Shown here: in pieces, positions 1 to 36,426 of the stretch | Position numbering within the stretch: the stretch's first letter is position 1 | Layout: every line of letters begins with the position of its first letter | Source: a virus | Virus record (IMG/VR): IMGVR_UViG_3300034094_000020 | Coordinates: 1 to 36,426 of that record | Length of the DNA: 36,426 nucleotides | Strand: one strand, 5' to 3' | Notes under the pieces: model-generated | What the model was told of the DNA's origin: nothing | The model's database searches: none | Seen by the model: only the letters and a program-made list of their open reading frames with translations | Position numbers and translations under genes: made by a program

Positions 1-222
1 TGCGACGGCCAGGTAACGCTTCTTGCCACGGCAGTCCACCTCAAGGCGGCTGATGGTCATGGTCGTGGACACCGTCTGGCCGGCGTAGGCCGCCGGCTTC
101 ATGTCGCCCGTAAACCCGGTCACGTTCTCGGTGACGGCGTTCGACGCATCGCCCTGCTTGAGCGTCAGCGTCTGGGCCACGCTCGAGGTGCTCGCCACCG
201 GGCCGTAGATCACGTCGATGCT
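1..222. repeat. Imperfect terminal repeat, left copy (partner 36208-36426)
   Basis: The first 222 bases match the last 219 bases of the window. By eye they differ at one synonymous site (position 112, A against G) and in one block at about 131-150, where six codons are replaced and one codon is lost. The rest is identical. The repeat lies inside a coding region, and the genes on either side make sense only if the two ends are joined. It is therefore best read as the overlap of a circular or terminally redundant genome, with an allelic difference between the copies. A tandem gene duplication is less likely. Confidence 0.85.
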
Positions 223-330
223 GGCGTAATCGTAGCCGAGGGTGTCGAGGGTCAAGGTGTTGGTCTGGGACGAGGTAAAGACCGCGTTCTTGCCGCTGAC
301 GACGCTCTTGGTCGCTGCTACAGAAATCAT
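1..330 (-). CDS. Probable head decoration or minor virion protein, N-terminal part (runs off the left end)
   Basis: The gene starts at the ATG at 328-330, preceded by a GAGGAGAA ribosome site, and reads off the left edge after 110 codons. It lies directly downstream of the major capsid gene, the usual place for a decoration or stabilising protein. The product is soluble, rich in Ser/Thr/Val and shows no enzymatic motif. Joined to the piece at 36097-36426 through the repeat it would make a protein of about 145 residues. The segment DASNAVTEN here is DTSSPTEN in the other copy. I do not recognise the family; the decoration role is inferred from position and size. Confidence 0.6.
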   Translation of the reverse strand, partial: MISVAATKSVVSGKNAVFTSSQTNTLTLDTLGYDYASIDVIYGPVASTSSVAQTLTLKQGDASNAVTENVTGFTGDMKPAAYAGQTVSTTMTISRLEVDCRGKKRYLAVA

Positions 331-1727: not shown

Positions 1728-1901
1728 TTACGACCGCGGAGCCTTGCAGTAGCGGATTTCAGAATGTGTTGTTTTGACAAACGCCACAGCGCGAGCGCCG
1801 CACCGTGGGCAGCGTAGATACCGCTGCCGCTCGTCGCCGCACGCGCGGCTCGATCGTGTCCGCAGCTGTTCGCCGCATTGACAGCGTGGTCGGTCAGACA
1901 T
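1728..1901 (-). CDS. Small Com-like zinc-ribbon protein
   Basis: 57 residues between the prohead protease and the capsid gene, overlapping the protease 3' end by eight bases. Two cysteine knuckles are visible, CQCGEQL near the N-terminus and LRCPRCGARA in the middle, and the C-terminus contains THSEIRYC. This layout resembles the Com zinc-finger proteins of Mu-like phages, whose Mu member binds the mom mRNA and activates its translation; the Mu protein also ends in a THS...RY segment as I remember it. A nucleic-acid-binding role follows from the fold. The actual target here is unknown. Confidence 0.7.
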   Translation of the reverse strand: MSDRPRCQCGEQLRTRSSRACGDERQRYLRCPRCGARAVAFVKTTHSEIRYCKAPRS

Positions 1902-2550
1902 GCTTGGTTCGCAGGATGGCAGCCCAGGCGGCGGCGACGCCCCGCAGGGCCGAACGCGAACAGTCCACCTGGGCTGCCGGCTCCTGCGTCTGCTCGGCCA
2001 GCCACGCCTCGTATGAACGCATGGCGACGGCAACGCTCGTGCTGCTGTAGGCCGGCGTGACCACGGGCCCCATCTCGTAAAGGCCAGACGCCTCAACCAC
2101 CTCGCGGATTGCCCGGCCGTTCTCGTCGGTGGTAAACCGCTCACCGCCGCGCGGCGCGACTGTGAACGCGAAGCTGCTGCCCCTCAAATTTTTCGATCTC
2201 ACTAAGGCAAGGACATCACGCCCTGCTTGCGTGTCTGGGGGTTCCACGGTGTAGCTGATGCCACGATCGTCTGCGGTGATCTCGAGCGTGCCTGCCGACT
2301 CGCGGCCCAGTAGCCAATTGGAATCGTGATTGAAGTACGACACGATCTCTTGCTTGCCACGCTGGCGGCTCAAAATCTTGTCGAATGCCCCCGGCAAAAT
2401 TCGCTCGCGGAAACCGCCGAGATCCACGGAGAGCCGGTTGTACGGGATTGCCAGTCCACGAATCGCCTCGCGGCCGTTGGCCCGCGTCTCGACGACGAGC
2501 TCGGCTTCCGGCACTTCTTCCACCAGCAGCGAGCGGCGTTCAATCTCCAT
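1894..2550 (-). CDS. HK97-family prohead maturation protease (peptidase U35)
   Basis: 218 residues. Family marks in order: IRGLAIPYNRLS near the N-terminus, then FNHDSNWLLGRESAGTLE holding the catalytic His region, GSSFAFTV with the serine region, and VTPAYSSTSVAVA. The enzyme cleaves the capsid delta domain inside the procapsid and then digests itself. Its start overlaps the portal 3' end by 11 bases, which suggests coupled translation. The C-terminal tail beyond about residue 180 is not conserved in this family and may be removed on maturation. Confidence 0.93.
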   Translation of the reverse strand: MEIERRSLLVEEVPEAELVVETRANGREAIRGLAIPYNRLSVDLGGFRERILPGAFDKILSRQRGKQEIVSYFNHDSNWLLGRESAGTLEITADDRGISYTVEPPDTQAGRDVLALVRSKNLRGSSFAFTVAPRGGERFTTDENGRAIREVVEASGLYEMGPVVTPAYSSTSVAVAMRSYEAWLAEQTQEPAAQVDCSRSALRGVAAAWAAILRTKHV

Positions 2551-8577: not shown

Positions 8578-8817
8578 TCACTCGGCTGGTGCGGCCTTTG
8601 GATGCTGCAACGCATACAAGAGCTTCGTCTGTTCGGTGATCGCGGTGGCAAGCTCTCGTTGCGTCTCGCGGACTTCTTTGAGCGTCAACCGATGCTCCTC
8701 GAGCAACGGCAGCAGCAAATCCTGCCGAATGAAAAACGCCAACGCCAACGCTACCAAGGTAGGGAAGCCCCAGCGCTCCAGAATGCTGAACAGCGTCTCC
8801 TTCGTCTCGGCCGTCAT
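8578..8817 (-). CDS. Small membrane protein with one TM helix and a coiled-coil tail (holin- or spanin-like candidate)
   Basis: 79 residues. After a short amphipathic N-terminus, GFPTLVALALAFFI forms a single membrane helix. The rest (LLEEHRLTLKEVRETQRELA) is a charged helix likely to form a coiled coil. This architecture occurs in phage hemolysin-XhlA-like and class III holin-like proteins. The ATGA overlap with the upstream gene (8814-8817) ties it to the cassette that includes the papain-like peptidase. Function is inferred. Confidence 0.65.
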   Translation of the reverse strand: MTAETKETLFSILERWGFPTLVALALAFFIRQDLLLPLLEEHRLTLKEVRETQRELATAITEQTKLLYALQHPKAAPAE

Positions 8818-9173
8818 CGCGTGAGCTCCTGCTTCCAGACGGCCATCAGTACGCGATTGCTACGGCGATCCAACCACCACTTGACAATCAACTGTACGAT
8901 CGCCGACGCCACGCCTTGCAGCACGAACACCCACCACACGCCGTACTCCTGGGCGTCCTCGCCGCTGGCGACTTGGTGGGCACGCTTGACGTTCTGCAGG
9001 ATCACGCCGGCCACAACCTGCCGCTCGTTGTCGTTCTCGGCGTGCTTGAGGAACTCGCCGGCCCAGTTCTCGACGGCCAACTGCACGAGGTCGTCGCACG
9101 CGGCACGGCCCACGAGGAACTTGCGCACGCCCAGGCGACGCCACACGTAGGTCTGAAGGTCGCGGATCGTCAC
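8814..9173 (-). CDS. Unknown protein with one C-terminal membrane helix
   Basis: 119 residues from a GTG start at 9171-9173 that overlaps the lipoprotein stop (GTGA). The first two thirds are soluble and helical (CDDLVQLAVENWAGEFLKHA). A strongly hydrophobic segment follows (WWVFVLQGVASAIVQLIV), flanked by basic residues (KWWLDRRSNR). No known domain is seen. In this position, between a lipoprotein and a holin-like protein, it could be an inner-membrane spanin or a holin partner. Confidence 0.65.
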   Translation of the reverse strand: MTIRDLQTYVWRRLGVRKFLVGRAACDDLVQLAVENWAGEFLKHAENDNERQVVAGVILQNVKRAHQVASGEDAQEYGVWWVFVLQGVASAIVQLIVKWWLDRRSNRVLMAVWKQELTR

Positions 9174-9460
9174 GGCTTGCAGCCCTCGACGCAGACGCTC
9201 TTCGGCACCTTCCCGGTGCCACCGCACGCGCCACATGAAACGACGACGCGGCCATCCGTGGGCAGCTTGCCCGTGCCGCTGCACGGTTCGCACTTGTCTC
9301 CCGGCTTCGGCCCCGGTGCAGGCGGGGGGGCCACTTCAGCACGCAACGCCATCACGGCCCGTGCCGTCTCGACTGCGAGGTCGGCCGAGATTGTCGGATC
9401 GTCGGGCAGCGTCGCCACGCAGCCAGCCATCACGACAACGAACACGAGTAGGAACCTCAC
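9170..9460 (-). CDS. Lipoprotein with a DnaJ-type CxxCxGxG zinc motif
   Basis: 96 residues. MRFLLVFVVVMAGC is a lipoprotein signal peptide with the lipobox MAGC. The mature part has a proline-rich stretch (APPPAPGPKPG) and then two CxxCxGxG motifs, CEPCSGTG and CGACGGTG, as in the cysteine-rich zinc domain of DnaJ. The start is GTG at 9458-9460, overlapping the peptidase stop. A short proline-rich lipoprotein beside a lysis enzyme recalls an outer-membrane spanin (Rz1 type). The zinc motif is not part of that family, so the role stays open. Confidence 0.75.
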   Translation of the reverse strand: MRFLLVFVVVMAGCVATLPDDPTISADLAVETARAVMALRAEVAPPPAPGPKPGDKCEPCSGTGKLPTDGRVVVSCGACGGTGKVPKSVCVEGCKP

Positions 9461-10383
9461 AGCACGTCTCCAGTCCAGTCAGGCAGTTGCGTGGGCTGGA
9501 AGCCCGAGTAGCCCGCGTAGACGTAGGAATCACGACCCGAGAGCATATTCGTGCACACGTCGGCGTCGATCCAAAACGAGCAGTTCCTCACGACGACGGG
9601 CATCGTCTCCGGGTAATGCTTGCCGACGGTGTTGCTATCACCCCATGAGTTAAAGCAAAGCAGGCCCGGACGCTTGCCCCATCTACAAGCTGCCAGGGTC
9701 ATACAATGCCACCAAACGCCGCCCGGCCGGCAGAAGCCATCCTCGTCGCGGGCCATGCTGAAGCCCTGGCCCGAACACACGACGACCGGATACCCGTTCT
9801 GGATCGCTGCGGCGGCTTCCTCAAACGTCGTGGCAAGCGTCGTCTCGCTGCACCGCCGCAGTTTCGCGTACGGCTCGAGCTCGTCGGGCACGCCCATGCG
9901 TCCCCAAGTGCGGTCCCTCTGCTGCTTGTCCGTCTCGGGGATCACCGTGCCGCCGTAGTCGATGCCGTAGTGCAGGGCACCGAAGTCGCGCACGCTCTTG
10001 GCCGCGTGGAAGCCCGTCGATCCGTCGCCGCCGTTGTTGACACGCTGCCCGCGAGCCTCGACACGGGAAAACCCGTACAGCGAAGCCTCCACCGTGCGGC
10101 CTCGCACCACCTCGGGCTCTTTGCGGTACACGACGTCGCACGCTGCCACGAAGTCCACCGCGAGAGACGCGCCCCAGCCGACGCACGAGCCGACGTTTCC
10201 CTGCGAGCCTCGCCGCCAGTTGGGCAGCACATTGAGCAGGGCGGGATACAGCATCACCTCGCGGCGATCGTCAGCCCGGAAGCCGGGAGCCGCTGACGCC
10301 AGCGTCGGGTGCGGCAGCGTCGCCACAAATGCCGCCGAACCCTCCGGGTCGGGCAAGTACCCAAAGGCGTGAGGATCGGCCAT
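9457..10383 (-). CDS. Papain-like cysteine peptidase (C1 type), candidate lysis enzyme
   Basis: 308 residues. The papain catalytic set is visible: Q61 and C67 in QGNVGSCVGWG (the same six-residue spacing as papain Q19/C25), H226 in WWHCMTL and N245 in FNSWGD. There is no signal peptide, so export would need a holin or the enzyme would be carried in the virion. It sits directly after a membrane protein and before a lipoprotein and two TM proteins, where an endolysin is expected; no glycan-cleaving enzyme is found in the window. The start ATG has GAGGTGAGCG upstream. Confidence 0.85.
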   Translation of the reverse strand: MADPHAFGYLPDPEGSAAFVATLPHPTLASAAPGFRADDRREVMLYPALLNVLPNWRRGSQGNVGSCVGWGASLAVDFVAACDVVYRKEPEVVRGRTVEASLYGFSRVEARGQRVNNGGDGSTGFHAAKSVRDFGALHYGIDYGGTVIPETDKQQRDRTWGRMGVPDELEPYAKLRRCSETTLATTFEEAAAAIQNGYPVVVCSGQGFSMARDEDGFCRPGGVWWHCMTLAACRWGKRPGLLCFNSWGDSNTVGKHYPETMPVVVRNCSFWIDADVCTNMLSGRDSYVYAGYSGFQPTQLPDWTGDVL

Positions 10384-13558: not shown

Positions 13559-14515
13559 TCACTCATGTTCCCAGTTTGGAATCACGGACGACACTTGCCT
13601 CGCGATCGACCGATAACTTGCTTGGTCAATAACCACCAACTTTTGGGCGGGATAGAACTTTGCGAAACGCTTTAGCTTTCCACGACTGGCTGAGTCCATC
13701 CAACCTTTGACTTCGTGAAAAGCGACGGTGCCGTCTGTCTCGAAGACCTTAAAATCTGGCTTGTATGTGTATGGGCCGCGACTAACACCCTCAAACCGAA
13801 ACGTCAGCGGCTCGTACTCCCAGGCAGCTATATCTCCGCGTGCCTCAAGCCATTTGAGGTAGCGTGCATAGTTGGCTTCCCATCGACTTCGGACAAATAT
13901 GCCGAGGTCTTCGCGCACGCCGCGTCGGCATCTGCTGTAGACATTACGACCTTTGTTTATCGCTTGAACTGGAGATGCGGTTCCGTATCGCTCGAGGTTT
14001 GTGGCGATGGTTTTCTTGCGGCGAATCTCTAGCAGCATCGGACGACTTCGCACGTGCTCCCAATGCTCCGCAGACATCTTGCCGAGCTTTTTTCTTGTCT
14101 CTGGCGAGTGCTTCAGGCCGAGCGCACCACGCGGATGGCCGTGCTCGGCAAGGTGCCGCTTTTGTCGCTCGGACATAATCTTTCGCGACTCGTCGAGGGC
14201 GACAGGCCGTGCCATTTTTGTTAGACCCAGTGTGCGAGCCTTGCGGCACACATTCCCCTTTTCGCGCCCGAGTTCCTTTGCAAGAACGTCGAGCCTGAGT
14301 GTGTCTTTCGCGTGGCCGCCTGGCCTGACATACCAAGCGATCAGCTTGGCTATCTCGGCATCCGTCCAGCGGTCGTCGCGCTTAATCCAGCCGTTGTCGC
14401 TGCAAGCATTTCTGACCGCATGATGGCTCGCGCCAATCATGTCGGCGATCTGCTTGTGCGTGTGAGTCAGGTAATGGTCCCTGACTATTTCCAACTGCTT
14501 TTTCGTAATTGGCAT
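13559..14515 (-). CDS. Composite homing endonuclease: HTH + NUMOD3-like + PD-(D/E)XK nuclease
   Basis: 318 residues. Residues 1-100 hold two HTH-like segments (KQIADMIGASHHAVRNACSD; LAKELGREKGNVCRKARTL). Residues 113-155 contain NUMOD3-like DNA-binding sequence (LGLKHSPETRKKLGKMSAEHW). Residues 205-290 are a PD-(D/E)XK nuclease with RWEANYARYL, YKPDF (D254) and HEVKG (E268, K270). The gene is visibly lower in GC than its neighbours and overlaps the 3' end of the protease gene by 31 bases. It is most likely a free-standing homing endonuclease inserted between the protease and glycosyltransferase genes. Confidence 0.85.
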   Translation of the reverse strand: MPITKKQLEIVRDHYLTHTHKQIADMIGASHHAVRNACSDNGWIKRDDRWTDAEIAKLIAWYVRPGGHAKDTLRLDVLAKELGREKGNVCRKARTLGLTKMARPVALDESRKIMSERQKRHLAEHGHPRGALGLKHSPETRKKLGKMSAEHWEHVRSRPMLLEIRRKKTIATNLERYGTASPVQAINKGRNVYSRCRRGVREDLGIFVRSRWEANYARYLKWLEARGDIAAWEYEPLTFRFEGVSRGPYTYKPDFKVFETDGTVAFHEVKGWMDSASRGKLKRFAKFYPAQKLVVIDQASYRSIARQVSSVIPNWEHE

Positions 14516-15279
14516 GCCACGACGCTACAAGGCACGTCAAACTCTTCGCCCATCACGTCGTGGAACCAATCGTGGTACAGCGACACCCGCGTGTGGGCCG
14601 ATTCCTCGCCTACCCGTGAGCGTGTCCTCGTGCCGTCCACGTCCTTCATCGTGAAACTGTTGATGCCGGCCAGGCGTCCAGCCACGAACAGCGGGCCACC
14701 GGAGTCACCCGGCGCGATGCAGTACGGCAGCGGCGATCCACCACGCATGGCCGGCAGCACGATGCAGCCGCGCTCAAATCGCACGATCCGCCCAGTGCCT
14801 GCCCGCAAGGCCCCGTCGCCGTGCGTGTGGCCCGTTGAGAGCCGGCCGGTGAGTCCGTAGCCGGCGACGCTGACGACGGCTCCTATGGCCTCCTGGCCGC
14901 TTGAGAGAGGCGGATACCACGCAAGGCCGAATGACCGGTCCACCCGCACGAGGGCCAAGTCGTGCCAGCCGTAGTTGCCGTCGGTGTACTCGCGGTGCGG
15001 GAAGATCCGCTCGATTCGCCGGATGCCCGTGGACGCATGCACGAGGCCGTGGGCGTAGTCCTCGACGACGTGGGCCGCCGTCAATGCCCAATGGTCTGCG
15101 ATCAGCACGCAGCTGCCGGCTGGCGTCGTCCCGTCGGGCAGCACGCCGATGATGCGGGCGGTGTATGGCGCGAAGCCGCGAGCGTAGGCGAGGTAGCGGG
15201 CGTCGGGGATGGCGTCGTCGGTCGTGCCCGCAAAGGCCGACGACGCCCAGCACAGGATGAAAAGCCCCAGTGCCCGCAT
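14485..15279 (-). CDS. Secreted trypsin-like serine protease (S1 family)
   Basis: 264 residues. MRALGLFILCWASSAFA is a Sec signal peptide with a likely AFA/G cleavage site. The catalytic triad is complete: H70 in ALTAAHV, D107 in HDLALVRV and S193 in APGDSGGP. The product should therefore be active in the periplasm or outside the cell. The last 25 residues lie beyond the usual end of the fold and overlap the homing endonuclease start, so the tail may have been rewritten by that insertion. A near-perfect hairpin abuts the start codon. Confidence 0.9.
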   Translation of the reverse strand: MRALGLFILCWASSAFAGTTDDAIPDARYLAYARGFAPYTARIIGVLPDGTTPAGSCVLIADHWALTAAHVVEDYAHGLVHASTGIRRIERIFPHREYTDGNYGWHDLALVRVDRSFGLAWYPPLSSGQEAIGAVVSVAGYGLTGRLSTGHTHGDGALRAGTGRIVRFERGCIVLPAMRGGSPLPYCIAPGDSGGPLFVAGRLAGINSFTMKDVDGTRTRSRVGEESAHTRVSLYHDWFHDVMGEEFDVPCSVVACQLRKSSWK

Positions 15280-16310: not shown

Positions 16311-16457
16311 CTATACCCTCGCCGCCATATACAGCCCGACGTTCGCCGCAGCGTACCCAGCGTAAGCAATCGCCAGCCCTGTCTTCCCATGCCACGCCAG
16401 GTCGCCGGCCACCCAGACGTAGATCACGCCGGTCAGTGCGATTAGCCACGGGCTCAT
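16311..16457 (-). CDS. 48-residue membrane peptide
   Basis: The ATG at 16455-16457 overlaps the stop of the HTH gene (ATGA). The product begins MSPWLIALTGVIYVWVAGDL and continues to a second hydrophobic stretch, LAIAYAGYAAANVGLYMA, so two short membrane helices are likely. It has no known family. It is the fifth in a chain of coupled genes with the clamp and HTH genes, so it is probably translated early in infection. Confidence 0.65.
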   Translation of the reverse strand: MSPWLIALTGVIYVWVAGDLAWHGKTGLAIAYAGYAAANVGLYMAARV

Positions 16458-16751: not shown

Positions 16752-17849
16752 TCACTCCGCAGCCAGGGGCATGATGACGCCGACATACGGCCCGCACTTG
16801 AGCAGCACCCGACTCTGCGGGTCCGTGGCGTACACGTTCACCTGCGGCTCCTCGTCGCCGGGAATGTGAGCGAGGAACTGCGACACGAACCGGGGATCGA
16901 GCTTGGTGCCGCTCGTGGAGCCGGCCGCCACGATGTCGCACTGAACCCGGCTTTCGCCGTACTCGCTCGAGCGTCCCGAAATCACGACGGCGTTGGCAGT
17001 CCACGCCAAGTCCACGCCCTTCGACTGCTCGCTCGTGACGATGGCCGCCGACTGCACCGCAGCCAGCAGGTCGGCCACCTCGCACACCGTGGGCTCGCCG
17101 GCCACCTCGCCCACCACGTCGCGCCACCGGGGAAACTTCCCGTCCAAGAGTTTCGCCGTCACCGTCGCACCGTCCAGCGTGAACCGCACGTCGCTCTTGT
17201 TGGCCTCGACTTGCACGCTGCCTTCGCCGTGGGCCAGCGTCGCCGCCACGAGCACGGCCCGAGCCGGCACGATGGTCTGGCTGTCGTCCACCGCCTGGTC
17301 CGTCTCCGTCTCCACGCACGAGAGCCTGCGGCCGTCCGTCGCCACCCAGGTCGGATTGCCCTTCGTCACGTCGATCAGCACGCCACCCAAGGCGAACCGG
17401 CTCGACTCGGTGTCGCAGGCGTATGCCGTCGCATGCACGGCACGCCGGAACTGATCCGCCGGCAGCCGGCACACTGCCCTGAGCTCGCCGGTCGTGTCGG
17501 CCGGGAACTCGGCCACGTCCTCCGTGGGCAGCGTCCACGAGCCACGGCCGCACTTGACGACGATGCTCGAGCCCTTCGGCGTCAGCGTCACCTCGTCGCC
17601 CTGGGCGGCCTTGAGGATGGCAGAGAGCTTCAGCGCCGGCAGCAGCACGGCGTCGCCGTGGTAGTCGATCTCCCGGTCGATCCGCACCTCGAGGTCCGTC
17701 GCCGAGAGAAGCCCGTCACCGAGCCGCACGTTCTGCAGCACCGGGCGTGGCGACTTCGTCGGAACCGCACGGAGCACGTCAGCCAGAGCCGTTCGCAGCG
17801 TCGCCGCGTCCAGCGTGATACCCGCCGCCTTGGTCTTGGTCGCAGTCAT
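16752..17849 (-). CDS. dnaN: DNA polymerase III beta subunit-like sliding clamp
   Basis: 365 residues, the normal length of a bacterial beta clamp with three repeated domains. Family marks are GLLSATDLEVRI in domain I, FALGGVLIDV with VATDGRRLSCVE at the start of domain II, KFPRWRDVV, SEYGESRV, LDPRFVSQFL in domain III, and the C-terminal YVGVIMPL. It would encircle DNA and tether the polymerase. A DNA polymerase is not encoded in the window, so it must recruit host Pol III or other clamp-binding enzymes. RBS AAAGGA before the ATG at 17847. Confidence 0.93.
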   Translation of the reverse strand: MTATKTKAAGITLDAATLRTALADVLRAVPTKSPRPVLQNVRLGDGLLSATDLEVRIDREIDYHGDAVLLPALKLSAILKAAQGDEVTLTPKGSSIVVKCGRGSWTLPTEDVAEFPADTTGELRAVCRLPADQFRRAVHATAYACDTESSRFALGGVLIDVTKGNPTWVATDGRRLSCVETETDQAVDDSQTIVPARAVLVAATLAHGEGSVQVEANKSDVRFTLDGATVTAKLLDGKFPRWRDVVGEVAGEPTVCEVADLLAAVQSAAIVTSEQSKGVDLAWTANAVVISGRSSEYGESRVQCDIVAAGSTSGTKLDPRFVSQFLAHIPGDEEPQVNVYATDPQSRVLLKCGPYVGVIMPLAAE

Positions 17850-23560: not shown

Positions 23561-24505
23561 ATGACGTTGGCAGAGTTGTTTGAGCGGTACGCGGACCTAC
23601 GGAACTTGGATGCCAAGACGATCGCCCTGTACGGGATGCTCCTAGAACGCCTACGTGCGTTCCTGGGACACGAGCCGACGGTGGACGACCTAGATGACCT
23701 CGTCATCAGTCGCTACCTCAGGCATCGTGCTACGCACACACGCAAGGGCAAGACAATCCGGCCGGCGACAGTCCAGAAGGACAAGGTGATGCTGGCCGCC
23801 GCCTGGAACCTGGCGGCCCGGAAACGCTGGGCCAAGGACTTTCCCGAACTGCCCCGCATCAAGGTCGCCAAGTCGATACCGACGGGCCGGGCGTACACAG
23901 CGGCAGACGTCGCCCAGCTGGTGCGTCGGGCGAAGCGCCGGCAGGGCAGGACTGGCGGCCACCCGTCGGCCTGGTGGTGGTCCACGCTCATCTACATGGC
24001 GTACTGCACGGGCGAGAGGGCGTCAGCCCTGCTGTCGCTCCGTTGGGGCGAGCTCGACCTCGAGCGGCGTCGGGTGCGTTTCCTGGGACACACGAGGAAG
24101 GGAAGCACCCACGACATCGAACGAGACTACACGGCCGACCTGGCCGCGATGCTTGCCGCCCGGCGTGGTCGCCCAGAGGATCTAGTCTGGCCGTGGGACC
24201 GCTGCAAAGGATCGCTATGGACAAGTCTCAAGCTGCTCTGCCGGCTGGCCGGCGTCCAGTACCGGGGCTTCCACGGGCTGCGTCGTACGCGAGCGTCATA
24301 CGCTGCCCTGGCCGGCGGAACGGCGGCAGCGACCCAGGTGCTTGATCACAGCGACCCCAAAATGCAAGAAAGATATGTCGATAGCCTGATTTGCCCGACG
24401 GAGCAGGCCAGCGTGGACGTGATGCCGCCGCTCGACCTGACCGAACCACCGACAAAGCCAGCCGATCCGCCCAAGGAATCGTCAGGCGACCGCCCGGCAG
24501 CTTAA
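23561..24505 (+). CDS. int: Tyrosine-type integrase
   Basis: 314 residues and the only plus-strand gene. An N-terminal SAM-like core-binding domain (LAELFERYADLRNLDAKTIA; ATVQKDKVMLAAAWNLAARK) precedes the catalytic domain. The catalytic residues are R153 (TGERASALLSL), K180 (GHTRKGS), H238 and R241 (HGLRRTRASY), H263 (LDHSD) and Y272 (ERYVD). It would recombine attP with a host attB. The ATG at 23561 is chosen because AAAGGGAGG lies 11 bases upstream; in-frame GTG codons before it are badly spaced. Confidence 0.93.
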   Translation: MTLAELFERYADLRNLDAKTIALYGMLLERLRAFLGHEPTVDDLDDLVISRYLRHRATHTRKGKTIRPATVQKDKVMLAAAWNLAARKRWAKDFPELPRIKVAKSIPTGRAYTAADVAQLVRRAKRRQGRTGGHPSAWWWSTLIYMAYCTGERASALLSLRWGELDLERRRVRFLGHTRKGSTHDIERDYTADLAAMLAARRGRPEDLVWPWDRCKGSLWTSLKLLCRLAGVQYRGFHGLRRTRASYAALAGGTAAATQVLDHSDPKMQERYVDSLICPTEQASVDVMPPLDLTEPPTKPADPPKESSGDRPAA

Positions 24506-25098: not shown

Positions 25099-26106
25099 TC
25101 AAGCAGATCGCACGGTACCGTCACCCATCACCCGATAGTTGTGGACATCGAACGCTCCACGCTCGTGAACCGTCGCTACGGCGAATCCCCAGTTCCAGCG
25201 ATTGATGACGGAGTATTCCGGTCGCAAGTCGCACAGGCATCCCGTGGACCAACACGCCGTTTCGTGGTGCCACATGTCGCTCTCGGCGTGGTTGCTCGTG
25301 CGGTGCGAGTGACCGACCAGCACCGTGGAGAGCGTTCGCAGGAACGCACCGCGAGCGACGTTGACCGGCGCGGCCATGCCCTTTGGCAACTCGTGACCGT
25401 GCAGCACGGGCAACTTGCCGAGCATCACGGGCCGCTGATCGTCCACCAGCTGCACGCCGTGCTTGTCGAGGTCCAGCCACGCACACAACGACATGCGGCG
25501 ATCGTCGCTGATTTCGGCGGCGTGCTGCCACAGCCAATGCTTCCAACGATCCTCGTGGTTGCCGACCTTGTAGACGATCGGGATGCGAGGAAACTCTTGC
25601 CGCAGGTAGGCGATGAAGTCCCGCACCGCCTCAAGCTCAGCTTTGAAGTCACGTTGCTTTGGGTCTTTCATGTAGCGACTGATGGCGTAGAAGTCTGCGA
25701 TGTCGCCGTTGAGCAAAAGCCCAGCCAATTGCTGCCGCTTCAGAAATCCGATTGCCGCAGCCACGGCGATCTCGGAGTGATACGGAACGTGAACGTCGGA
25801 GATGATGCCGACAGGCCCGAGCACCTTGAAGACGTGCGGCGTCCAATCCGATGCCGCACTCTTTGGCATGGCGTACAGATGCCCGTTCTTTCGGGCTTGG
25901 CGCACTGCCACGGGTTTCATTGTTTGCGCGTCTTTGGTTCCGTTGCGGCCAAACTGCCGCATGATTCGCTTCCTTGCCTGCTCGAGCGTGATCGCGTTGT
26001 TGGATTCCTTGACCAACCGCCTAGCGAGCGTGCGAGTGTGGGCATTGGGGTGCGTGCGGCACAGCTTTCTGGCCATGTCTGTGATGGCGTCGCCCTCATA
26101 CTTCAT
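25099..26106 (-). CDS. Calcineurin-like metallophosphoesterase
   Basis: 335 residues. After about 90 residues of a helical, basic N-terminal region (possibly an HTH: LARRLVKESNNAITLEQARK) the phosphoesterase domain shows ISDVHVPYH (D104, H106), LLNGDIADF (D135 region), KVGNHEDRW (GNHE 182-185), LHGHE (236-238) and LVGHSHRTS (265-268), the full metal-binding set. It is a two-metal hydrolase acting on nucleic acid or nucleotides. It starts 11 bases inside the zinc-peptidase-like gene. Confidence 0.88.
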   Translation of the reverse strand: MKYEGDAITDMARKLCRTHPNAHTRTLARRLVKESNNAITLEQARKRIMRQFGRNGTKDAQTMKPVAVRQARKNGHLYAMPKSAASDWTPHVFKVLGPVGIISDVHVPYHSEIAVAAAIGFLKRQQLAGLLLNGDIADFYAISRYMKDPKQRDFKAELEAVRDFIAYLRQEFPRIPIVYKVGNHEDRWKHWLWQHAAEISDDRRMSLCAWLDLDKHGVQLVDDQRPVMLGKLPVLHGHELPKGMAAPVNVARGAFLRTLSTVLVGHSHRTSNHAESDMWHHETACWSTGCLCDLRPEYSVINRWNWGFAVATVHERGAFDVHNYRVMGDGTVRSA

Positions 26107-26383
26107 CCGGCACCTCGCGGTATCCATGCGACCACAGAACCTTTGCCACGTCCTTCCCCGCCTGCTCAATCACTTCCTCGGACGCCTGGGGAAAGATTGC
26201 GTGCAGCAACTCGTGGATCAGCACCGTCAGCCTGTGCTTGCCCCTCATCCCGTCGTGCAGGACGATGCGGGGATGCTTGGCCTTCTGCGTGTACGTGATC
26301 CCGTACGCCTGGCCCGTGAGCTCAGTCCAGCGAATGAGCCACCGCTCGTCGCCGTTCAGCGTGTAGACGTGATCGCGCGGCAC
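26096..26383 (-). CDS. Small HExxH zincin-like protein
   Basis: 95 residues from a GTG at 26381-26383 with GAAAGGGAAG upstream. The motif VLIHELLHAIFP is a zinc-peptidase HExxH; glutamates nine and ten residues after the second histidine (ASEEVIEQ) could supply the third ligand. The protein is much shorter than known peptidases, so it may be a minimal SprT-like zincin or only a metal-binding relic. It is coupled to the phosphoesterase gene. Confidence 0.7.
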   Translation of the reverse strand: MPRDHVYTLNGDERWLIRWTELTGQAYGITYTQKAKHPRIVLHDGMRGKHRLTVLIHELLHAIFPQASEEVIEQAGKDVAKVLWSHGYREVPDEV

Positions 26384-36096: not shown

Positions 36097-36426
36097 TCAG
36101 CCGGCCGTGTTGACCGACACGCCCTTTGTGGCGGCGTTGTACGGGGCCTCTTCAGCCCGCGACAGCCGAGCCGAAATCACGATCACCGCGTCGGTGTTTG
36201 GCGACGTTGCGACGGCCAGGTAACGCTTCTTGCCACGGCAGTCCACCTCAAGGCGGCTGATGGTCATGGTCGTGGACACCGTCTGGCCGGCGTAGGCCGC
36301 CGGCTTCATGTCGCCCGTGAACCCGGTCACGTTCTCGGTCGGCGAGCTCGTGTCGCCCTGCTTGAGCGTCAGCGTCTGGGCCACGCTCGAGGTGCTCGCC
36401 ACCGGGCCGTAGATCACGTCGATGCT
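36097..36426 (-). CDS. Probable head decoration protein, C-terminal part (runs off the right end)
   Basis: 109 residues are in frame from the right edge to the stop at 36097. The sequence continues the N-terminal part seen at 1-330: the shared region SIDVIYGPVASTSSVAQTLT, then DMKPAAYAGQTVSTTMTISR and LEVDCRGKKRYLAVA. It then ends TSPNTDAVIVISARLSRAEE and VNTAG. Joined through the repeat it gives one protein of about 145 residues. The variable segment reads DTSSPTEN here. The only alternative is a second tandem paralogue. Confidence 0.65.
   Translation of the reverse strand, partial: SIDVIYGPVASTSSVAQTLTLKQGDTSSPTENVTGFTGDMKPAAYAGQTVSTTMTISRLEVDCRGKKRYLAVATSPNTDAVIVISARLSRAEEAPYNAATKGVSVNTAG
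36208..36426. repeat. Imperfect terminal repeat, right copy
   Basis: Partner of 1-222. It is three bases shorter because one codon is missing in the variable block at about 36338-36354; otherwise one synonymous difference separates the copies. See the left copy for interpretation. Confidence 0.85.

Follow-up and report, generated by a model that had tools for sequence, protein, structure and literature searches.

What would a phage gain by exporting a serine protease from the cell it infects? The question is raised by a gene in a 36,426-base virus record (IMG/VR IMGVR_UViG_3300034094_000020), analysed here over its whole length and referred to as the window. An initial annotation had read positions 14485–15279 as a secreted, trypsin-like phage protease. 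That open reading frame is real and exact; it lies on the minus strand, which the annotation had not given, starts with an ATG at 15279, encodes 264 amino acids and has coding-type GC by codon position (GC3 0.82, GC2 0.54). Pfam Trypsin (PF00089) matches the product at E = 1.2e-15, with 58.4 bits against a cut-off of 20.6, placing it in the S1 family; Trypsin_2 matches at E = 2.6e-11, and the Peptidase_S78 profile of prohead proteases does not match. The catalytic triad is complete (H70, D107, S193), with the His and Ser codons confirmed on the DNA, and the N-terminus, by reading of the sequence, is hydrophobic and ends in AFA followed by glycine. The S1 fold, full triad, export signal and phage setting proposed at the outset are thus upheld by the reading frame, Pfam, a structural model and N-terminal hydropathy, and the product is, judged from its sequence, almost certainly an exported S1A protease (Table 1).

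Table 1. Positions in the window of the protease gene, its predicted functional sites and its neighbouring elements
Feature	Positions	Strand	Basis
Holliday-junction resolvase-like protein, next gene	13559..14515	-	phrog_190, E 3.6e-32; overlaps protease stop by 31 nt
Secreted S1A-fold serine protease gene	14485..15279	-	ORF and translation; Pfam Trypsin 1.2e-15; AlphaFold2 model
Catalytic Ser193 codon (Ser195), in GDSGGP	14701..14703	-	DNA codon check; family alignment
Catalytic Asp107 codon (Asp102)	14959..14961	-	Family alignment
Catalytic His70 codon (His57)	15070..15072	-	DNA codon check; family alignment
Gly18, predicted mature N-terminus, equivalent to chymotrypsin residue 16	15226..15228	-	VIA-align rows; spacing to Asp26
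Predicted signal peptide, residues 1-17 (MRALGLFILCWASSAFA)	15229..15279	-	Sequence; hydropathy; signal peptidase I residues
Conserved 5' non-coding element, CTGCAAG at -37 plus inverted repeat, ending at the start codon	15280..15316	-	14 upstream regions aligned, 7 invariant columns
Sliding clamp (DNA polymerase III beta), upstream border of the cargo slot	16752..17849	-	Pfam 3.6e-19; slot comparison

One end of the window carries TerL, portal, S78 prohead protease and HK97-type capsid genes, the other a tape measure, and a tyrosine integrase lies at 23561–24505. Its peptidase complement differs from the two clear enzymes and possible third counted in the initial annotation. The supposed papain-like protein at 9457–10383 (minus) matches no Pfam family above cut-off, no PDB sequence at E below 0.3 and nothing among GenBank phages; it forms a family of its own in six related loci. 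The HExxH protein at 26096–26383 (minus) gives SprT-like and M78 matches that fall below every Pfam cut-off. The clear second peptidase is instead one that the annotation did not name, the S78 prohead protease at 1894–2550 (minus; E 3.3e-35). Elsewhere, positions 9170–9460 (minus) encode a lipoprotein-like product whose CxxCxGxG pattern is that of a DnaJ-type zinc finger (below cut-off in Pfam: DnaJ_CXXCXGXG, E 0.024). The two ends of the window (1–330 and 36097–36417, minus) encode portions of similar proteins, both with VIYGPVASTSSVAQTLTLKQGD; in a circularly permuted genome these would be tandem paralogues. No tRNA gene and no Rfam match were found in the window.

The structure of the protease was predicted with AlphaFold2 from a 38-row alignment (mean pLDDT 89.6). 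Searched with Foldseek and aligned with VIA-align, the model matched collagenase (1hyl_A; Z 25.7, rmsd 2.0 Å, 202 aligned residues) and cathepsin G (7h6g_B; Z 25.9, rmsd 2.1, 201 aligned). A second model, of the large-phage family member L107 (pLDDT 84.8), matched S1A chains at Z about 21.5, and both predictions adopt the two-barrel chymotrypsin fold characteristic of S1A. In the window model, residue 18 is the first aligned residue in 50 of 50 VIA-align rows, untrimmed rows agreeing, and in 45 of these its partner is chain residue 16; the remaining five chains are numbered differently. In the L107 model, the first mature residue, 27, leads 35 of 50 rows, residue 28 leads 13, and residues 26 and 25 lead one each. 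About three rows of the L107 comparison are trypsinogens, as might be expected because this model retains its signal peptide.

Among 127 distinct mature viral proteins, the triad is without exception wherever the letter is present (H 127/127, D 126/126, S 125/125), and Asp194 is kept in 122 of 125, the other three reading GCSGGP. These three come from L005, L006 and a third contig, where GCSGGP replaces GDSGGP and sets Cys194 beside the catalytic serine. An N-terminal alignment of 129 distinct viral proteins, 128 of them with the relevant columns, places Gly (118) or Ala (10) at position 16, Thr at position 17 in all 128, and exactly eight residues between position 16 and an invariant Asp26, again in 128 of 128. 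The residues before position 16 (A, S, G, C or V at −1; A, V, S, L, I, G, C or T at −3) satisfy the signal peptidase I rule in every one of the 128.

In S1A enzymes, as passages of PMC3793935 describe, residue 16 is released when a propeptide is cut off; it then inserts into a pocket, where it pairs with Asp194. The phage proteins do not generate an Ile or Val at 16 from a propeptide; they carry Gly or Ala there, directly after the signal peptide. From the models and the conservation together, we infer that the signal peptide stands in for the zymogen propeptide. Once signal peptidase has cut, Gly18-Thr19 would be free to insert into the residue-16 pocket and to form a pair with Asp192 (Asp194), so that the enzyme would be switched on while leaving the cytoplasm. 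It is probable, on this modelling, that signal peptidase both exports and activates the phage protease. If this step is true, the protease would be harmless in the cytoplasm and active outside, with no propeptide needed.

Three features sit uneasily with such activation. Gly or Ala at position 16, in place of Ile or Val, is expected from enzymology to insert more weakly into the pocket. In the L005 and L006 lineages (2 of 38 representatives), Cys194 means that the salt bridge would be lost, which argues against the activation model. The L107 model, which still carries the signal peptide, matches trypsinogens too. The N-terminus may not activate at all, with activity independent of the residues ahead of Gly18 and the eight-residue spacing no more than a folding constraint; the poor fit of Gly16 to Ile16 favours this, as does SplD, an S1B protease described in passages of PMC3793935 as active despite extra N-terminal residues. 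Yet Gly/Ala-Thr and the signal peptidase rule hold at the exact site in 128 of 128 proteins, and both models put the mature N-terminus at residue 16; we consider a non-activating N-terminus fairly unlikely. Cellular relatives bear on activation by signal peptidase as well. With start types assigned by pattern and the remainder classed as "other", Ala directly precedes residue 16 in 14 of 16 cellular IVxRD-type relatives, while all 15 cellular [IV]xGG/NG-type proteases have intervening residues between the signal region and residue 16. Given the Ala before residue 16 and the fixed spacing, the phage family and its cellular cousins both seem to be activated by signal peptidase.

The initial annotation called a protease of this kind rare in phages, which holds for GenBank but not for uncultured viruses. 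None of 50,697 GenBank phage records matches the window protease at E ≤ 1e-5, and two distant family members find no match there even at E 0.1; on IMG/VR contigs, by contrast, such proteases are common. Three profile-guided IMG/VR scans returned 109, 460 and 138 relatives in overlapping sets, and from the best 80 of each, at least 139 distinct loci were verified, the window included. All 139 match a family profile built from 38 representatives, and each of those 38 matches Pfam Trypsin. A simple hydropathy test finds a hydrophobic N-terminus in all 82 members to which it was applied. Relatives on three further virus contigs are 82, 82 and 58% identical to the window protease. The serine motif splits the family into GDSGGP proteins on small contigs, the window's set (50 of 82), and GDSGGG proteins on large contigs (30 of 82); contigs with the protease reach 381,443 and 458,813 bases. 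Two proteases, of L008 and L075, end at contig edges before the serine.

Cellular relatives are distant. They comprise 51 loci in 84,980 species genomes, retrieved with search patterns that favour the window's subfamily, and all are at most 34% identical. Against the family profile, which was made from the 38 viral members, no complete viral member falls below 252 bits and none of the 50 cellular loci compared exceeds 114. None of 298 Gemmatimonadota genomes encodes a protein in the viral score range, the best reaching 128 bits. Plasmids supplied matches in 5 of 72,556 records, at 25–30% identity, the top one being in fact chromosomal. As to the monophyly of the viral proteins, a tree of the proteases gave two viral clusters (17 and 55 rows) with deep branches weakly supported in a quick search; it is disturbed by long-branch and truncated cellular rows.

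These comparisons bear on the reading that the gene is cellular contamination or a decaying passenger. Nothing speaks for it beyond the absence from GenBank phages. Against it, the protease is flanked by phage genes in the window and its relatives, the cellular and viral profile scores stand apart, and dN/dS is well below 1: 0.087–0.465 in 15 of 16 pairs, the sixteenth being identical, and 0.22 between the window protease and its nearest distinct relative, L002. We therefore hold contamination or decay to be very improbable. The initial annotation was to be abandoned if the gene proved absent from all close relatives and also showed signs of decay. It is absent from many of them; where present it is intact and under purifying selection.

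The S1 fold and family are already known, and S1-fold phage proteins are on record (phrog_9683 and several BFVD entries). What is apparently undescribed is the phage-specific protease lineage, its size and its putative Gly-Thr signal-peptide activation: in the parts of the literature searched, mostly open-access, we found no description of a comparable phage protease family or of signal-peptide activation with Gly-Thr. A large phage family with a clear enzyme fold and an export signal has apparently been overlooked, it appears because its members are found in uncultured phages only.

If the fold is that of trypsin, the specificity is not, and only the former sense of "trypsin-like" stands. Trypsin specificity depends on Asp189, which occurs in none of the 125 proteins with a letter at that position. 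Among 127 proteins, position 189 is L (46), M (36), C (33), G (4), I (4), A (1) or V (1), with two gaps, and position 216 is V, L, T, Q or I. The S1 pocket is thus predicted from sequence to be shallow and non-polar, closer to that of elastase than of trypsin.

We then considered the place of the gene in the genome. The window has a DNA methylase gene ahead of the protease and, after it, a resolvase-like gene, in a position that RusA occupies in most small-genome relatives. In the small-contig set, the next gene lies on the same strand in 43 of 44 loci and, in 41 of 44, overlaps the protease or starts no more than 10 nt away; this count leaves out six of the 50 loci, in which the protease was uncalled, and the starts and overlaps are approximate, as genes in relatives come from a simple in-house caller. 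Within four genes of the protease, the small-contig set has RusA in 30 of 50 loci and the clamp in 16 of 50, and the large-contig set has a helicase in 17 of 30. Lysis-type reading frames are not among these neighbours. A 48-residue membrane protein is encoded upstream of the protease in the window (16311–16457, minus) and lies within four genes of it in 21 of 50 small-set loci. In L093 (3899–4249) and related large-contig loci (13), a thioredoxin-fold protein whose hydrophobic N-terminus suggests export is encoded at most 10 genes from the protease.

A comparison that started from the clamp gene rather than the protease covered 50 related loci, 25 of them with at least 4.5 kb downstream. The protease is present in 4 of these 25 and absent from 21, and most protease-less loci keep clamp and RusA with other genes, or little, between them. 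In nine clamp loci, one of which also has the protease, the slot holds a gene for a small secreted cysteine-rich protein, usually just before RusA. This protein is about 100 residues long and belongs to no Pfam family above cut-off (L314:9737–10042, L307:3042–3344, L336:11647–11949 and six further loci). Given this variable presence between clamp and RusA, the protease looks like a moron-type cargo gene; we are confident that it is optional cargo between the sliding clamp and the Holliday-junction resolvase.

The gene also brings its own upstream element. It lies at the same position in the window and its relatives (L060, L061, L007, L088 and others) and is common to loci whose proteases are only 45–57% identical. 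The inverted repeat differs on both arms between the window and L061. The element may be an operator, a promoter or an RNA hairpin. An in-frame stop within the element of L060–L062 indicates that it is non-coding there. The RNA fold z-score in the window is −2.0, calculated for the entire 168-nt gap upstream of the protease. No sigma-70 promoter was found at the protease gene, and its terminator-like sites, two against 2.4 expected, are both on the opposite strand. By eye, CTGCAAG, a candidate for a shared late promoter, also stands before capsid, holin-like and other genes, with several copies within coding sequence.

What, then, is the protease for? The initial annotation offered three roles: stripping surface proteins to aid release, blocking superinfection by destroying receptors, and lysogenic conversion. 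Export and early-type neighbours suit an enzyme acting on the envelope of a living infected cell. Our guess is that the protease is made well before lysis and, after export, would cut a few host envelope or surface proteins; that its substrate lies in the envelope or surface of the infected cell we find somewhat probable. The most likely purpose would be to exclude competing phages by modifying or removing receptors, although superinfection exclusion in particular is a leading guess that we hold only tentatively. Taken as a whole, the account of an exported S1A protease that signal peptidase activates, carried as cargo by a temperate siphovirus and cutting envelope or surface proteins against competing phages, is plausible but falls a little short of an even chance. 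The protease offers a candidate mechanism by which phages might remodel the host envelope ahead of lysis.

A role in release would have the protease weaken, at a late stage of infection, an envelope rich in protein (S-layer, lipoproteins, outer-membrane proteins). An exported protease would reach the envelope, and its own conserved element before the start codon could allow late expression. The gene, however, sits with clamp, resolvase and helicase rather than with the holin-like and lipoprotein reading frames at 8578–9460, and 21 of 25 near-relative loci lack it while keeping the surrounding genes. Its position and optional presence argue against an essential lysis role, and this part of the annotation is weakened: the gene lies outside the lysis genes and is dispensable in near relatives. 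We rate a helper function in release as unlikely. About equally unlikely is an anti-defence or anti-competitor gene, whose protease would attack a defence or stress protein of the host or of a prophage within the periplasm. Optional cargo slots are the usual site of such genes, and some family members match defence-system proteases weakly in PADLOC; those matches (E 1e-6 to 2e-4) are due to the common fold, and the window protein has none.

Less likely again is nutrient scavenging, in which a lysogen or infected cell would secrete the protease to digest outside protein. The predicted pocket suits small or aliphatic side chains, and the fold is of a generic digestive type with best matches to elastase. 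In a Gram-negative host, however, scavenging would require passage across the outer membrane, and no secretion partner was seen; nor does long-lived lysogeny account for the very large contigs that carry the gene. These contigs, of about 200–459 kb, are hardly all temperate, which argues against a purely lysogenic role. Returning to receptor removal, a broader version is conceivable, though improbable: phages from about 36 kb and temperate up to 459 kb would share proteases activated by signal peptidase at the inner membrane, shaving the host surface against competitors, and the slot before the resolvase, holding protease or cysteine-rich protein, would be a cassette site for exported effectors.

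The host was sought through TerL. The best matches to the window TerL were prophage-like loci of Acidobacteriota, at 47–51% identity (4 of 247 genomes, E ≤ 1e-100), followed by gut-phage records (47–48%), Gemmatimonadota (41%; 1 of 249 genomes) and Pseudomonadota (37–43%; 3 of 398). Seven Acidobacteriota stretches around TerL matches share packaging genes, an HNH reading frame and a weak methylase match with the window, and the family protease is absent from all seven; we therefore claim no host. A planctomycete host is a lead that we presume from the secreted cysteine-rich neighbour and proteinaceous walls.

How does the family compare with known proteases? With the chymotrypsin-type S1A enzymes (elastase, chymase, cathepsin G, granzymes), it has in common the fold over residues 18–249 (Z about 25), the triad, and GDSGGP with Asp194. 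It differs in having Gly/Ala-Thr where S1A has Ile-Val at 16–17 and in lacking a propeptide between signal peptide and residue 16, and identity to S1A chains is 20–27% in the alignment rows listed. Staphylococcal SplB, of S1B, offers a parallel for activation: passages of PMC3793935 state that removal of its signal peptide likewise gives the active N-terminus and that activity needs exact N-terminal processing. Glu1 marks the Spl proteases and, in SplB, is held on the surface by hydrogen bonds (described in the same passages); the phage family instead has Gly or Ala after the signal peptide, with the window's Gly modelled at the S1A residue-16 site. HtrA/DegP periplasmic proteases are also exported, S1-fold and found in some phages, as in an entry for Rhizobium phage AF3, but the window protein has no PDZ match (Pfam, E 0.001) and scores 14.2 bits on TIGR02037 against a cut-off of 416. 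Among phage proteins, phrog_9683, whose function is the label "protease" alone, is a distant match to window residues 47–214 (E 4e-7, only 30.8 bits). The best cellular profile scores belong to the IVxRDxxDxxY-type S1 proteins of Stenotrophomonas, Lysobacter, Rhodanobacter, Alteromonas and Gemmatimonadota. These have the same eight-residue spacing from residue 16 to Asp26 as the phage family; they differ in carrying Ile/Val-Val at 16–17 and in scoring at most 114 bits against the phage profile, and 15 of 17 fall in a separate clade with support of 99.
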